IMG/VR virus record: IMGVR_UViG_3300034072_000581
Location: 1 to 39,870 of that record
Source: a virus
Strand: one strand, 5' to 3'
DNA length: 39,870 nucleotides
The notes below the pieces were generated by a model that was not told where the DNA came from, made no database searches, and was given only the letters and a program-made list of their open reading frames with translations. Position 1 is the first letter of the stretch. Each line of letters opens with the position of its first letter. Below are positions 12,162 through 23,325 of the stretch, in pieces. The position numbers and the translations under genes were made by a program.

Positions 12162-13613
12162 TTAAAACGGTATTTCAGTGTCATACTGCCTGTCTGATTT
12201 CGGTATCGTCCAGTCCATAGGTGGCGGTGTGAACGATGTATCAGGTGCAGGTGCAGATATGTCAATGTCGGTGAATGTAGTTGTTTTGCCGTGAAATTGC
12301 ATAGGGATGGTGCTGGTCGGCCCGTGCCTGAATTTTGCAATGTCACATTCCACGTATCCAGGCTGTATAGGGCCGTCATCTGTCTGCGTAATGCCGTAGT
12401 ATTCTGGTCGCCACAGGAACAGTACCATGTCAGCCTCCTGTTCAATTGCGCCGGATTCGCGCAGGTCTGATAACATCGGTCGTTTACTGCCGCCGCGCGT
12501 TTCCACCGATCGCGATAATTGCGACAGGCACACAAACGGTATTTTCAACTCCTTTGCCACGTTTTTCAGCGCCTGCACGTTGTGATTTACCTCGGCCTCG
12601 CGATGGCCCCTGTATTCCGGCGGTGCGGCCATTTTTTGCAGGTAATCAAGCATGATGACACGACAGCCGCATTTTTGCACCAGTCTGCGTGCGCGTGACC
12701 GGATAGATGCTGCTGACTGTGCGCCCTCGTCATCTATGTACAGCGGAATGCCTGTCAGCACATTTGCCGCATCCATCAGCGGTGCAAAATCACCCACTTT
12801 GCCCATTTTCATATCAGCGCCGGATGTTCCTGAAACCGATGCCATCAGGCGCATGGATATTTCCTCAGCTGTCATTTCCAGCGAAAACACACCCACCGGA
12901 ATACCAGTCATTGCAATATTCAATGCCCATGTCATCATCAGGGCCGTTTTGCCCATGCCTGGCCTGCCTGCCATGATGTACAGTTCACCACCTTGCAGGC
13001 CTCCGGTGTGCCGGTCGAACTGCCTGATGCCGGTTTCAATGCCTGTGATACCCTTGTTTTCCGTTGCCGTTTCAATGCGCTTTAGTAGTTCAGGCATGTA
13101 TTCGCCTACCTTGCGCGCATCCTTACGCGTGACCTGATGGCCTATTGCATACACATCACGTTCGGTTTTATCCAGCAATTCAATTGCGTCTGATTCCTCA
13201 GACATCGCCTCCGTCACTGATTCCACACCCACACGTATGATTTCCCTGCTGATGTGTTTTTCAGTCAGCATCCGCGCATGTGCCTCGATGTTTGCCGTAC
13301 TGACCACAATGGATGCCAGGTCAGCTATCATCCACGTTTGTGCATGCACTGCACCGGTGCGTGTAATTTCCTGCGATACAGTCAGCATGTCAATAGGCTG
13401 GTTCCTGTTGTGTAATGAACGCACGGCGCTGAATATTTCCCTGTTAGCCTCGCTGTAAAACATGCCCTCGCTTAATTGGTCAACTACCTGCGATGCAACT
13501 GAACTGTCAGTCAGCAGCGCAGACAGTACCACACGCTCCAGTTCGATGGATGACGGTGGCACACCATTCACGATGATGGCAGGCGCTTTGATTTGTTTTT
13601 TTGTGTGATTCAT
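12162..13613 (-). CDS. dnaB: replicative DNA helicase, DnaB family
   Basis: A 483-residue hexameric helicase. The N-terminal domain has the DnaB pattern SSIELERVVLSALL and MFYSEANREIFSAVRSL; the RecA-like domain has Walker A GRPGMGKTAL near residue 215, GVFSLEMTAEEISMRLMAS, the Walker B region RVIMLDYLQKM, and the C-terminal LSDLRESGAIEQEADMVLFLWR motif. Size is normal. It lies downstream of the initiator gene with the probable origin, as expected for a replication module in which the initiator loads the helicase. Confidence 0.97.
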   Translation of the reverse strand: MNHTKKQIKAPAIIVNGVPPSSIELERVVLSALLTDSSVASQVVDQLSEGMFYSEANREIFSAVRSLHNRNQPIDMLTVSQEITRTGAVHAQTWMIADLASIVVSTANIEAHARMLTEKHISREIIRVGVESVTEAMSEESDAIELLDKTERDVYAIGHQVTRKDARKVGEYMPELLKRIETATENKGITGIETGIRQFDRHTGGLQGGELYIMAGRPGMGKTALMMTWALNIAMTGIPVGVFSLEMTAEEISMRLMASVSGTSGADMKMGKVGDFAPLMDAANVLTGIPLYIDDEGAQSAASIRSRARRLVQKCGCRVIMLDYLQKMAAPPEYRGHREAEVNHNVQALKNVAKELKIPFVCLSQLSRSVETRGGSKRPMLSDLRESGAIEQEADMVLFLWRPEYYGITQTDDGPIQPGYVECDIAKFRHGPTSTIPMQFHGKTTTFTDIDISAPAPDTSFTPPPMDWTIPKSDRQYDTEIPF

Positions 13614-13629: not shown

Positions 13630-14088
13630 TTAAAAGTTTGGATCAGTGACCATGATGGTATAATCAGTGAAGTTGGCAAAGTCGGCCCTGTCACGGCCAA
13701 TGCGGCCCACAACTGAATCACCTGGCATGTCGCGTTTCATCAGACGTTCATACCGTATGTGTTCGGGGATGTTTAGGTAGATAACAATCAGCGGCATAGT
13801 AGGCTCTTGAATCCTGATTTGGCGCAACATTTCAGGCCCGACAATGAACACATCTGATGTCAGGTATTCCAGGGTTGACAGGCCATACCACCAGTTATTA
13901 AATTTAACCCTGAACTGACATGATTCAATGTCGTTTGCATCAGTAAACCAGTACTCAGTGTCGTGTTCGTTTCTTTTCGGTCGTGTGGTAGCCAGTTGTC
14001 CAATCAGCAGACCGTTCCTGCGCATGCGTTCTGCTAATGTTGATTTACCAGATGCCGCAGGCCCGACTATTATTATTTTAATACTCAT
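13630..14088 (-). CDS. P-loop nucleotide kinase, guanylate kinase-like
   Basis: A 152-residue protein with a P-loop GPAASGKST at residues 9-17, followed by ATTRPKRNEHDTEYWF, which resembles the GMP-binding TTRxxRxxExxGxdYxF block of guanylate kinases, and a late ERLMKRDMPGD lid-like segment. It probably supplies nucleotides or phosphorylates a small substrate. I prefer the ATG at 14088, preceded by AAACAAAACACA, over an in-frame ATG at 14118. The pairing with Mom or ThyX is suggestive of nucleotide metabolism but is inference. Confidence 0.75.
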   Translation of the reverse strand: MSIKIIIVGPAASGKSTLAERMRRNGLLIGQLATTRPKRNEHDTEYWFTDANDIESCQFRVKFNNWWYGLSTLEYLTSDVFIVGPEMLRQIRIQEPTMPLIVIYLNIPEHIRYERLMKRDMPGDSVVGRIGRDRADFANFTDYTIMVTDPNF

Positions 14089-14139
14089 TGTGTTTTGTTT
14101 AGTTTCAACTGTTTCCATTTTGGAAATAGCTGGTGTGTG

Positions 14140-15126
14140 CTATTGAAAATTAAAACCCTTTGTTTTCAGTGTCACTGTTTCTGCATGCGCCGGCTGGCCC
14201 TGTTTAGCGCCTGCCTGCGCTGTGCGTTTGTATTCCGATTCACGCAACACCCACCGTTTGAACGATTGATGCAACTGGTGCGCACTGTGATTGAATTTCT
14301 GATTTTCGATCATGTACGATGCCCACATGGTCATACAGTCTTTCAGTTGTTCAGTTGTCATCCGGCTGCCCTTCGCATCGTTCAGGATGCCGACTGTGTA
14401 TTCATTCGGATTTCCTTTGTAGTATGCTGCCATGATTGTCCGTAGTTCGCTGTCTGTGCGGTATGCCTCGCGCTGACTGTGGTATGCCAATGAATCCGCA
14501 GCGCCTGAAACCGCCGCGCCTGCCCTCTGGCCTGCGGCGCTTTCTTCTTTTAGGTCTGATGAAATAACTGATGTGGGAACAGATGTTACAACAGATGGAA
14601 TAACAGATGGAATAACAGATGTAGTCTTTGTTTGCTGTTCAGATGGTGTTTCAGATTTGAGAACCGGACTAATCGGTTGCGCCTGCAAAGAGGGTGTGTC
14701 CTCTCTCTTATTGTTGTATTTATTACTTATATTTAATGGGGTCACTGTGGCTGACCCCTGGGGGTCAGTGTGGCTGACCCCTACCGTCAGTGTGGCTGAC
14801 CCCTTTGATTGGAATGTTGCCATATCAACAGGCTCCTGTTGTCCGTAAAACATCTGATTATTTACACGCCTGAGTGTAGGCTGCCCCGGACGTTCAACCT
14901 GTTCGATGTAGCCTAATTTAACCAGCCTGGTCAGGTAATTTGTGACATTCGTTTCTGTGCAGTCCATCCATTCTGCAAAGTGCCTGCGCGTAGCATAACA
15001 CCAGCCTGTGCGCTGGCTCAGTGCAGTTATTTCGGCCAGCAAAAGTTTTTCCATCGGCTTCACTTCGCGTGACAGCCAGATGTGTGCAGGTATGAATACC
15101 CCTGTAAAGTCGCGATTTATTGACAT
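14140..15126 (-). CDS. replication initiator with winged-helix DNA-binding domain
   Basis: A 328-residue protein. Residues 1-95 form a winged-helix domain (MEKLLLAEITALSQRTGWCY, then FAEWMDCTETNVTNYLTRLVKLGYIEQV), the typical N-terminal domain of phage O-type initiators. A low-complexity linker (about 105-190, Ser/Thr/Val/Pro-rich) is encoded by the repeats described at 14566-14803. The C-terminal 80 residues (LKDCMTMWASYMIENQKFNHSAHQLHQSFKRWVL) are helical, as in domains that recruit the helicase. Order initiator then DnaB supports the role. Like lambda O, the gene appears to carry its own origin. Confidence 0.85.
   Translation of the reverse strand: MSINRDFTGVFIPAHIWLSREVKPMEKLLLAEITALSQRTGWCYATRRHFAEWMDCTETNVTNYLTRLVKLGYIEQVERPGQPTLRRVNNQMFYGQQEPVDMATFQSKGSATLTVGVSHTDPQGSATVTPLNISNKYNNKREDTPSLQAQPISPVLKSETPSEQQTKTTSVIPSVIPSVVTSVPTSVISSDLKEESAAGQRAGAAVSGAADSLAYHSQREAYRTDSELRTIMAAYYKGNPNEYTVGILNDAKGSRMTTEQLKDCMTMWASYMIENQKFNHSAHQLHQSFKRWVLRESEYKRTAQAGAKQGQPAHAETVTLKTKGFNFQ
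14566..14625. repeat. five tandem 12-bp repeats inside the initiator gene
   Basis: Five consecutive 12-bp units related to AACAGATGGAAT start at 14566, 14578, 14590, 14602 and 14614. Two are identical. They encode four-residue units of the xxSV type in the linker of the initiator. They lie about 110 bp from the iterons and may be part of the origin, or merely a flexible protein linker. Confidence 0.75.
14701..14803. other. probable replication origin: three palindromic iterons and AT-rich stretch
   Basis: Three copies of a near-perfect palindrome, GGGGTCAG-N5-CTGACCCC in the middle copy, lie at 14738-14758, 14761-14781 and 14784-14803, with repeat spacings of 23 and 22 bp. Directly beside them, 14706-14737 is almost pure A/T. 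Because 23 and 22 are not multiples of three, the copies are read in different frames, so the repetition is kept at the DNA level. Iterons plus an AT-rich unwinding element inside the initiator gene match the lambda-type origin layout. Confidence 0.75.
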
Positions 15127-15129
15127 GGC

Positions 15130-15414
15130 CTAATAAAGGTTTTTTGGGTTTATCACTATTGAATGAATCGTACCACTATGGAAATCAGCCTCAAAATGAA
15201 TGACGTGCTGCTGCATCAGGGTGTTCAGGCCACGCGTGACGGTGTCGGTGTGCATGTTTAACCTGCGTGCTAGCACTGTTCTGGTTATCTGTAAATCAGG
15301 AACGCCCCGTAACATGTAGTCCAGTTCGCAGAACAGCACGATGGCTGATGCTGTTAATTTTGACAATTTGCGGATGTTTCGATACATGGTTAGTACCTCA
15401 GTTGTTGTATCCAT
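15130..15414 (-). CDS. winged-helix DNA-binding protein
   Basis: A 94-residue protein that consists of little more than a winged helix: LSKLTASAIVLFCELDYML, then ITRTVLARRLNMHTDTVTRGLNTLMQQHVIHF with a recognition helix, followed by the wing. It resembles the N-terminal part of phage O-like initiators. It ends four bases before the initiator gene, with which it may act at the origin or as a regulator. Confidence 0.75.
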   Translation of the reverse strand: MDTTTEVLTMYRNIRKLSKLTASAIVLFCELDYMLRGVPDLQITRTVLARRLNMHTDTVTRGLNTLMQQHVIHFEADFHSGTIHSIVINPKNLY

Positions 15415-15425
15415 TGTTTTGGGAG

Positions 15426-16166
15426 TTAAAAATTTACAATTAGTTGTGGCTGATTTAATGCGTTTGGACTTTGGAATGCAGACAATACCATCCAGTTGCG
15501 TTGATATTGTAGCATATTACCAATTAGCAATAATTGCGGCTTGCTTGTATTGATATGCCTAAATGCTTCTTTAGTTGCTCCATATTTGCGCTGAAACTCA
15601 AAAAATTGCCATTCGTTTAATTGTAAATTGTGCGTTCCGTCCTCATCCTTAAATATCATTCTTGCCTCCTTCTGCCTTGTTTCCTTAGTAAACTTTGTAA
15701 AATCAGCCAGTTCTACATCGTTAAACATTCCTATCTGACTGGTATTAATAAACCGGTCATTTGAATCCCAAAACGGATTTACTGTCTGTGCCATTATTAC
15801 ACCTATACTTTTGCGCTGTTCATTCAGTTGGCTTATTGATGGCGTTACGCATAATGACAGGTAATCAATGACTTTTGCTTTGTTAGCAACACCTATCAAT
15901 TTGCAGTCATCGGTAAATCCAAACCAGTTTTCATTTTTTGAATAGCTGGATAATTTCCAGGATTCGCGCCGTGAATCACGTTTGTTTTTCTCAACTTCAA
16001 TTTCGTAGGTATGCCATTTTTTCATTCCGGTAATCGGCAAAGGATATACCCTGATTAATCCGAACTGCGGACAATAGCCAAGCGAACAGGTATAAAGTTT
16101 GCCGTCACGTTTATCGAACTCAGGAACAGATTTGCAAAGTAGTGTATATTGAATTTTCTGTTTCAT
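15426..16166 (-). CDS. protein of unknown function coupled to the DUF4326 protein
   Basis: A 246-residue soluble protein. It has an N-terminal beta-rich domain (YTLLCKSVPEFDKRDGKLYTCSLGYCPQFGLIRVYPL) with three Cys residues that might bind metal, and a long region of mixed structure. I do not recognise the family. The ATG overlaps the stop of the DUF4326 gene (ATGA), so the products are made together and may act together. Codon use looks more AT-rich than in neighbouring replication genes. Confidence 0.7.
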   Translation of the reverse strand: MKQKIQYTLLCKSVPEFDKRDGKLYTCSLGYCPQFGLIRVYPLPITGMKKWHTYEIEVEKNKRDSRRESWKLSSYSKNENWFGFTDDCKLIGVANKAKVIDYLSLCVTPSISQLNEQRKSIGVIMAQTVNPFWDSNDRFINTSQIGMFNDVELADFTKFTKETRQKEARMIFKDEDGTHNLQLNEWQFFEFQRKYGATKEAFRHINTSKPQLLLIGNMLQYQRNWMVLSAFQSPNALNQPQLIVNF

Positions 16167-17032
16167 GCGTCAAGTTCGTTTGATTTTTCAGCAAGAAAAT
16201 GACCGTGACATCTTTGCGGATGGCAATGACAACCTAATACTTTTCCCTTCAGCATCTTCAATCGTGCGTGTAGCGATTTTTTATAAGGGAAGTATCCGTA
16301 TTCGTATGCGTCACAAACTTCATCCCTATTTCCGTCTTTAGGCATTTCAAACGGGTTGCCCCATTCGCTAAACCGATCAACGCGTTCATATTTACCGTTT
16401 TCCTGCGCCCATTTCAGCAGGTGAAAATGCGCATTCATGTTTATCACAACAGATTCGCCGTTTTCAACTTTCCGGCGCATTTCAGCCTGATCTTCAGGCC
16501 AATCGTTTTTGGCGGCCACTTCGATTTTTTGCTCGCGTGCTGCCTGTGCTGAACTGAATTTAACAGCCTGAAGTACCGCCGTTCGCGTTGGCAGGTCATC
16601 CGCTTCGCGTGCTTCCTGTTTTATCTGTTCGACAATAGCCTTATTATCTGCGAGTGTCTGGAAACGGGATACTTGAAATTTATCAAAACCGAGTGACTTG
16701 ATAGCCTCTTCTTTGGTTTGATTATTAGAACTAAAAGTAGCAGCGCTGCTACTTTTATTTTCTCTTTTTTCCTCCCAATGGCTTCCTGTGGCCTTTGGCA
16801 TAGCCTTCAGGATTTCACCGATTTTAACCTCTGCATCCAGTAGCGCCTCGGCCAACATTTGCGCCTCTTCGCGTTTCTGCCTTCGCACGCCTTCGGCAAC
16901 ATCCAGTTTATCAAGTGCCTTAATTCCGGCCCTAACCATTGCCAGTTGATCGCGTCCGACAAGTACAAACTTTGCCAGGTCATTTAGTGTGTCAGGAAGG
17001 TATTGACCTTCGTTTTTAGGTATTATGTCCAT
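16163..17032 (-). CDS. DUF4326-containing protein with helical N-terminal region
   Basis: A 289-residue protein in two parts. Residues 1 to about 180 are helical, with the segment SLGFDKFQVSRFQTLADNKAIVEQI and PTRTAVLQAV, a pattern I associate with phage and plasmid proteins that bind DNA or partner methylases. Residues about 205-289 are a DUF4326 domain: a WGNPF motif, a central DAYEYGYF segment and the signature GCHCHPQRCHGHFLAE, which carries conserved Cys and His residues. The function of DUF4326 is not known to me. I take the ATG at 17032; a longer reading would run back through the structured terminator. Confidence 0.8.
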   Translation of the reverse strand: MDIIPKNEGQYLPDTLNDLAKFVLVGRDQLAMVRAGIKALDKLDVAEGVRRQKREEAQMLAEALLDAEVKIGEILKAMPKATGSHWEEKRENKSSSAATFSSNNQTKEEAIKSLGFDKFQVSRFQTLADNKAIVEQIKQEAREADDLPTRTAVLQAVKFSSAQAAREQKIEVAAKNDWPEDQAEMRRKVENGESVVINMNAHFHLLKWAQENGKYERVDRFSEWGNPFEMPKDGNRDEVCDAYEYGYFPYKKSLHARLKMLKGKVLGCHCHPQRCHGHFLAEKSNELDA

Positions 17033-17045
17033 TGTTTTGAGCAAT

Positions 17046-17130
17046 AAAAAAAACGCCTGTAACGGTGGGCGGCTTTGGTATGCCATTTGCGCCGTTCACT
17101 AAAGCGCAATACCCGCCCGTTACAGGCGTT
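17046..17130 (-). terminator. long two-stem hairpin followed by an eight-U run
   Basis: On the minus strand a 14-bp perfect stem (17130-17117 with 17065-17052) encloses 51 bases that contain a second stem (TTGCGC/GCGCAA, 17109-17104 with 17092-17087). Directly after it come eight T residues. This is an excellent intrinsic terminator and larger than needed for termination alone. It lies 14 bases before the DUF4326 start. Confidence 0.8.
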
Positions 17131-17190
17131 CTTACTTAAGAAATAAAGTGAACATTCACCGGGTTACCAATCCGGCGGCCTTCTGTTAGG
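17046..17190 (-). ncRNA. candidate structured RNA between the methyltransferase and DUF4326 genes
   Basis: A transcript from the TATCTTTG box at 17196-17203 would begin near 17189 and end at the U run near 17046, about 144 nt. It would contain several short hairpins (GTGAATGTTCAC at about 17160, CTTAAGTAAG at about 17135, a CCGG...CCGG stem at about 17160-17176) and the large two-stem terminator. Open frames inside are nine codons or shorter. It may be a small RNA or a leader that controls the next gene. Confidence 0.45.
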
Positions 17191-17195
17191 CATTG

Positions 17196-17203
17196 CAAAG
17201 ATA
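17196..17203 (-). promoter_or_regulatory. Bacteroidota -7 promoter box (TATCTTTG) after the methyltransferase gene
   Basis: An exact TAnnTTTG match begins eight bases after the methyltransferase stop codon. No TTTG is visible 19-21 bases upstream, so the -33 element is weak or absent. Confidence 0.45.
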
Positions 17204-17210
17204 CGGGATT

Positions 17211-18197
17211 TTAGAACATGGATAGCTGTGATTTTTTGGCCAAAAACCGTTTTTCGGCCTCTTTTACGTTCATCACAGCCTGTTTGTAATATGATTCCTT
17301 CAGTTCTATACCTAATGCCTTGCGACCGTGTGAAACAGGGCTGTAAACTTCAGAACCAACACCCATAAACGGAGTTAACACTACTTCGCCGGGATTGCTG
17401 TACAATTCAACAATGCGATCAATGACATCCAGTTGAAGCGGATGCACGTGCTTTTCGTCATCCTCTTCGCGTGCCTCTCTGAATGGCAGCACGTTGTCAT
17501 TCCTGATGTCATCCCAAACAGACGAGGCGTAACGCTGCCAGTGGATGTGTGCCAGCTTGTTTGTTTTCGGATCCTCATGGTTTTCGTACTTTTTTTTCAG
17601 ATCCTCATAGTTGCCGTACATCTCAACCATTTCCGGCAGCATTGGTGTTGCGCCTGCATATTCAGTGATACCTACCGGATGTTGAACAGGAACAGCGTTC
17701 TCACCGTTTTTTACAAAAATAAGAACGTAGTCAGGCATGGCAGTAAAGCATTTTGTGCTATCCTCTACGATCAATTTGTGCATCAATGACGCAACCATTG
17801 TGCGCATGCGAACCTTTAAAGGCTCTTTCCAGATGGTAATTCGGTTGCGATAGGTAAACCCATGTTTCAGGTGTATTTTGATGATTTCATGCGGTAAATC
17901 CCACAGGATATTTTTGGTGACATTTTCGCAAATATCCTGACAGTGTACCGCACTGATGCGGCCAGGCTTTGTCACCCTGCTGATTTGTTCGACAAGGTAT
18001 TCATACTGTTGCAGGAACTGTTCACGTGTATCACAGTTTGAAAAATCGTTTTCGTGTGAGCTGTAATTATACAGCCCCGCAAACGGTGGCGAATAAACTG
18101 ACAGATCAATTGATTTGTCGGCAATGGATGGCAGGACATACATACAATCGCTGTTATAGATTGCGTAATTGTCCGTGATTAGTTGGTCATTAATCAT
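17211..18197 (-). CDS. DNA methyltransferase, permuted N6-adenine/N4-cytosine type
   Basis: A 328-residue enzyme. The catalytic motif IV SPPF is at residues 36-39 and the AdoMet-binding motif I (TPFMGVGSE) is near residue 278, followed by ALGIELKESYY. This order, IV before I, defines the permuted amino-methyltransferases. No nuclease gene lies beside it, so it is probably a solitary methylase that protects phage DNA or affects expression. Its start overlaps the helicase gene by eight bases. Confidence 0.92.
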   Translation of the reverse strand: MINDQLITDNYAIYNSDCMYVLPSIADKSIDLSVYSPPFAGLYNYSSHENDFSNCDTREQFLQQYEYLVEQISRVTKPGRISAVHCQDICENVTKNILWDLPHEIIKIHLKHGFTYRNRITIWKEPLKVRMRTMVASLMHKLIVEDSTKCFTAMPDYVLIFVKNGENAVPVQHPVGITEYAGATPMLPEMVEMYGNYEDLKKKYENHEDPKTNKLAHIHWQRYASSVWDDIRNDNVLPFREAREEDDEKHVHPLQLDVIDRIVELYSNPGEVVLTPFMGVGSEVYSPVSHGRKALGIELKESYYKQAVMNVKEAEKRFLAKKSQLSMF

Positions 18198-23243: not shown

Positions 23244-23305
23244 CAAAGATACGCACGTTTTTAATATTGTCAATAGTTTAATAAATTTATTTTTAAAATA
23301 TTTTC
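23244..23305 (-). promoter_or_regulatory. strong Bacteroidota-type promoter with AT-rich upstream element
   Basis: The minus strand shows TTG (23273-23271), 19 bases and TATCTTTG (23251-23244), with an A/T-rich block further upstream. About 51 of 62 positions match the promoter at 9949-10010, including an unbroken 19-base block around TATTGACAATATT. It should drive the operon from 23196 downwards. Confidence 0.82.
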
Positions 23306-23325
23306 ATGTGGTGCGTTTAGGCAAT

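Follow-up and report, generated by a model that had tools for sequence, protein, structure and literature searches.

The window analyzed here, the entire 39,870-nucleotide IMG/VR virus record IMGVR_UViG_3300034072_000581, very probably contains the theta-replication origin of the phage, an iteron-type origin embedded in the phage's own initiator gene. The preliminary description had read the iterons inside this gene as the phage origin, a reading that is strongly supported, though unproven, by the identity of the gene, its DnaB neighbor, the stability of the adjoining duplex, a survey of HTH_36 initiators, and a cassette swap in related phages. The features discussed below are listed in Table 1.

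Table 1 Features of the replication region, in window coordinates
Feature	Coordinates	Strand	Remarks
DnaB-type replicative helicase	12162..13613	-	Pfam/PHROG matches
Nucleotide-kinase-like P-loop protein	13630..14118	-	PHROG guanylate kinase
Replication initiator gene, 328 aa	14140..15126	-	Pfam HTH_36; PHROG 270 and O-like PHROGs
Helical C-terminal domain, residues 219-312	14191..14472	-	Structure model
Disordered linker, residues 92-218	14473..14853	-	Structure model, pLDDT<50
Short dyad AGAGG-N6-CCTCT, beyond the A/T stretch	14689..14704	.	
A/T-rich stretch, proposed DNA-unwinding element	14706..14737	.	28/32 A/T
Iteron 3, adjoins the A/T stretch	14738..14758	-	GGGGTCAGCCACAGTGACCCC; 7-bp arms
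Iteron 2	14761..14781	-	GGGGTCAGCCACACTGACCCC; 8-bp arms perfect, 5-nt center
Iteron 1, first in gene direction	14783..14803	-	GGGGTCAGCCACACTGACGGT; outer right arm degenerate
Winged-helix DNA-binding domain, residues 8-91	14854..15105	-	Structure model, pLDDT about 75-94
Small winged-helix-like protein, 94 aa, directly upstream of the initiator	15130..15414	-	Predicted

The ends of the window overlap by 244 bp with one mismatch, which supports the 39,626-bp circle proposed in the preliminary description. Besides the replication genes, the phage encodes an exonuclease VIII-like protein, thymidylate synthase, terminase, portal, capsid, and tail proteins. The initiator matched Pfam PF13730 (HTH_36) with an E value of 1.5e-7 (31.5 bits against a cutoff of 25) and PHROG 270 with an E value of 2.9e-13. 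Several other replication-initiation and O-like PHROGs were also matched, whereas the Pfam family Phage_rep_O was absent from the initiator matches at E<=0.1, as was RepA_N (PF06970). Among the top matches of a fold search were the RepA-type N-terminal domains 4pql, 4pt7, and 5kbj, which we take to be RepA entries; these matches were weak (E about 0.03), and a PDB sequence search with the binding domain gave no credible match. The phage DnaB gene lies two genes downstream of the initiator, separated from it by a single kinase-like gene, and no helicase loader was recognized, the genes downstream of the initiator being those for the kinase-like protein and DnaB.

The iterons, located about 320 bp inside the initiator gene, together with the A/T stretch encode approximately residues 108 to 142, within the disordered linker. 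On the coding strand the order is GGGGTCAGCCACACTGACGGT, GGGGTCAGCCACACTGACCCC, and GGGGTCAGCCACAGTGACCCC, followed by ATTAAATATAAGTAATAAATACAACAATAAGAGAG. Compared with GGGGTCAG-N5-CTGACCCC, iterons 1, 2, and 3 carry 3, 0, and 1 mismatches, respectively, and they are spaced by 23 and 22 bp (22 and then 23 in gene direction). The analysis thus recovered the three dyadic repeats, head to tail and 22 to 23 bp apart, of the preliminary description, together with its imperfect last copy, as all 3 mismatches of iteron 1 are confined to the outer arm. Since the loop is also kept among the copies (CCACA on the coding strand), "N5" understates their likeness. The copies had further been said to be read in different frames; on the coding strand they start in codon phases 2, 0, and 2, and therefore the middle copy alone differs, while the other two share a frame. 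In dinucleotide-shuffled windows the motif was matched 0.07 times on average and never 3 times. The observed tandem match of 18/18 was never reached by synonymous-codon shuffles of the gene (p<=5e-4). No other local direct-repeat family in the 39,626-bp circle reaches 3 copies (>=16 nt), and no other tandem pair of like dyads occurs there. A search of the window against Rfam gave no match.

The A/T stretch adjoins the repeats, as described, and lies on their 3' side; it is A/T-rich, but it is not almost pure A/T (Table 1). It ranks second in instability among the 30-bp duplexes of the circle (z=3.75), after 23270-23308. The latter lies in an A/T-rich region (23257-23311; up to 31/32) that includes the least stable duplex of the circle, and no iterons were found nearby. 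Beyond the A/T stretch, the short dyad has a counterpart in three related loci, L065 to L067, where an AGAGAG..CTCTCT dyad occupies the equivalent place at the right edge of an exchanged cassette (see below). Downstream of the stretch, the initiator linker also contains 12-bp tandem repeats (14558-14634). They were considered as a second iteron set and rejected, being in frame and encoding SVIP/SVIP/SVVT/SVPT/SVIS. The GC-skew inflection that the preliminary description proposed to look for near 14.75 kb was not found: the detrended range was no larger than that of block permutations (p=0.14). GC skew gives the origin reading no support and is uninformative in this genome.

When the collected loci were surveyed with an HMM for the binding domain, 23 other nonredundant HTH_36 initiator genes were obtained; these were scored for tandem repeats beyond synonymous-shuffle expectation in the 210 nt that follow the domain. 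Significant repeats followed the binding domain in 16 of the 23, compared with 3 of 200 control genes (Fisher p about 2e-16, with p-values that assume gene independence, which is only roughly true). The repeat period was 20 to 23 in 14 of the 16 positive initiators, and dyads were enriched in the repeats (combined p of 2e-6). Many of the repeat cores are dyads with an A-rich center, such as CGACAAAATTGTC in Cellulophaga phage phi39:1, CTTCGGAAAACACGAAG in HU1 and Skulduggery, and TAGTGACAAAAAAATCACTA in L174. The Pseudomonas phages HU1 and Skulduggery have related binding domains and a common iteron core, CTTCGGAAAA..ACGAAG, while their C-terminal ends differ and the next gene encodes a helicase in one and a DnaC-like loader in the other; the repeat therefore follows the binding domain. 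With a winged helix, two-turn repeats beside an A/T stretch, and a helicase close downstream, the window initiator fits this HTH_36 pattern of in-gene origins.

No near relative of the initiator or of its DNA-binding domain was found in viral contigs or genome contigs, in relative lists that came from pattern-based scans and are not exhaustive. Among the 28 contigs with related terminases, only one encodes a related initiator (G015/L048/L065; 35% identity). Between the window and L065, the initiators are 28% identical over residues 1 to 95 and 58% identical over residues 218 to 300. Judged by these alignments, the presumptive DNA-reading part diverges and the C-terminal end is conserved. Many near-identical contigs among the terminase loci (L020 to L033 and others) start ~500 bp before the terminase large-subunit gene, a common start that may represent a genome end or packaging site.

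The loci L065/L066, L067, and L068 are about 92 to 94% identical in DNA over their flanks and the C-terminal halves of their initiators, whereas the three types have unrelated DNA from approximately the start codon through the A/T tract. In L067 the initiator is preceded by an extra small reading frame, and in L068 the shared sequence resumes slightly later, inside the linker. An unrelated cassette between such similar flanks indicates that the binding domain, the repeat region, and the A/T tract move together. In the linkers of L065, L067, and L068, the closest relatives of the whole protein, the repeats were not significant by the synonymous-shuffle test. We consider it reasonably probable that the binding domain, iterons, and unwinding tract constitute a portable replicator-specificity cassette that is swapped onto a constant C-terminal domain, so that coinfecting relatives use non-cross-reacting origins; the window would then represent one of these types, its iterons being unusual in that they are GC-rich and lack A-tracts.

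In L065 to L068, the left edge of the exchanged cassette is marked by a conserved leader of ~170 nt that precedes the replication operon (window 17040-17215, minus strand; L065 and L066, 2765-2955; L067, 2528-2722; L068, 2205-2395). It stands directly before the initiator in these loci and before the gene at 16163-17086 in the window. The leader comprises a promoter-like box (TATCTTTG), a CCGG..CCGG stem, and a long hairpin, AACGCCTGTNACGGGCGGGT..CCGTNACAGGCGTT, with a T-run. Compensatory changes occur at five pairs, it has no Rfam match, and it may be an attenuator or a small RNA.

The window motif was also sought elsewhere. An exact-motif scan of viral contigs with GGGTCAGCCACASTGAC gave 16 single matches, approximately the chance level by estimate. 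A blind scan for GGGGTCA-N6-8-TGACCCC-N0-6-GGGGTCA returned 5 viral contigs from IMG/VR and 6 genome contigs. One of the viral contigs, L094, contains an HTH_36-like gene with GGGGTCA-N6-TGACCCC dyads just after the helix-turn-helix region; its HTH_36 score is weak, and the synonymous test showed no significance for its direct repeats. Among the other contigs that were inspected, three carry TGACCC/GGGTCA arrays (L091 to L093) and the remainder appear unrelated. The arrays are dense (L091, 11016-11046; L092, 6176-6247; L093, 2873-2944). That of L092 lies inside a DUF2637 gene, and very similar proteins are encoded by L091 and L093; the arrays are possibly binding sites for a DNA-binding part of this protein.

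For the origin in the window, we propose that the N-terminal winged-helix domain would bind the GGGGTCA-N7-TGACCCC dyads with one dimer per iteron. A spacing of 22 to 23 bp corresponds to two turns and would place the iterons on about one face of the helix. The resulting nucleoprotein complex could strain and open the adjacent A/T stretch, and the C-terminal helical domain may help to deliver the phage DnaB to the opened DNA. We infer the binding, dimer stoichiometry, melting, and helicase recruitment, with lambda (PMC7466680), SPP1 (PMC6316719), and pSK41 (PMC5703833) as the models for binding, opening, and DnaB delivery.

Dyads of this kind would also suit a dimeric winged-helix repressor, and a gene for a small winged-helix protein lies upstream of the initiator. 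The array might accordingly be an operator through which the initiator or this neighbor represses or roadblocks transcription of the replication operon. We regard this as very unlikely, given that the array lies about 320 bp within the gene, away from any recognized promoter, that only one duplex in the genome is less stable than the one it adjoins, and that in the sister phages the repeat region is exchanged together with the initiator binding domain while the upstream region stays. Autoregulation could nevertheless operate alongside origin function.

Less probable still is a role of the palindromes as mRNA hairpins, whether in attenuation, in mRNA stability, or in the control of translation. 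Shuffled sequences fold far less well than the coding-strand RNA (z of -4.67), but any DNA dyad yields a hairpin, the minimum-energy fold pairs arms from different copies, and no T-run follows the array on the coding strand. Moreover, the A/T-rich dyads of the relatives would make weak stems, yet two-turn spacing and the A/T tract are kept. A functionless recent tandem duplication of a short palindrome would predict the loop common to all three copies, and conservation is seen in no near relative. We give this explanation the least credence, because equivalent arrays with different sequences occupy the same place in the 16 positive relatives at a frequency far above that in control genes, the spacing changes by one base but still amounts to two helical turns, and the genome has no second array of this kind.

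The in-gene origin proposed here gives an uncultivated phage an origin that is precisely placed and testable. For HTH_36 initiators more broadly, it suggests an origin-finding rule: 20- to 24-bp repeats just after the binding domain, by an Asn-rich (A/T-rich) linker. Naturally occurring swaps of the cassette point to the piece that likely sets origin specificity and offer ready-made domain-swap experiments.

Lambdoid O genes vary together with their iterons. In lambda and the Stx phages, the iterons lie in gene O, with a melting A/T-rich tract alongside, and each has inverted-repeat symmetry and binds a dimer of O (PMC7466680), so that palindromic units do not set the window apart from lambda as the preliminary description had supposed. 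Like lambda, the window has inverted-repeat iterons and an A/T tract within the initiator gene; unlike lambda, it has three iterons (lambda and Stx phages have four or six) of unrelated sequence, its protein matches HTH_36 and not Phage_rep_O at E<=0.1, and the phage has its own DnaB, with no P-type loader recognized. SPP1 oriL, in gene 38 of the gp38/gp39/gp40 module, combines direct repeats with an A/T-rich unwinding element, and the phage encodes a DnaB-type helicase (PMC6316719). The window shares with SPP1 the in-gene repeats, A/T-rich element, initiator, and phage-encoded DnaB, whereas the dedicated loader gp39 and the second origin, oriR, belong to SPP1, and neither was recognized in the window. 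In Staphylococcus phage 80alpha, a mutant of the initiator, ORF20, could not be complemented in trans, which suggests an origin embedded in the gene (PMC5499656). Our reading likewise places the origin in the initiator gene, but 80alpha has no helicase gene of its own and relies on a DnaC-like loader, ORF21, while the window has DnaB.

A parallel in protein layout is seen in plasmids. The RepA_N Rep of pSK41 has a winged-helix N-terminal domain, an origin-encoded linker, and a C-terminal domain, and in the pPR9 hybrid the C-terminal domain of pSK41 is joined to an HTH_36 (pfam13730) N-terminal domain and to different origin DNA (PMC5703833). The window initiator has the same arrangement as pSK41, and the pPR9 swap is of the same kind as the exchange in L065 to L068. 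Unlike these plasmid proteins, the window initiator comes from a phage and has no RepA_N Pfam match, and its iteron center is CCACA, compared with a poly-A tract in pSK41 and pPR9. In-gene origins are already known from lambda, SPP1, and pSK41 and have been suggested for 80alpha, and joint exchange of an HTH_36 binding domain and origin is already known from plasmid pPR9 (PMC5703833); particular here are an iteron sequence that is GC-rich and free of A-tracts and the exchange of cassettes within this group of phages.
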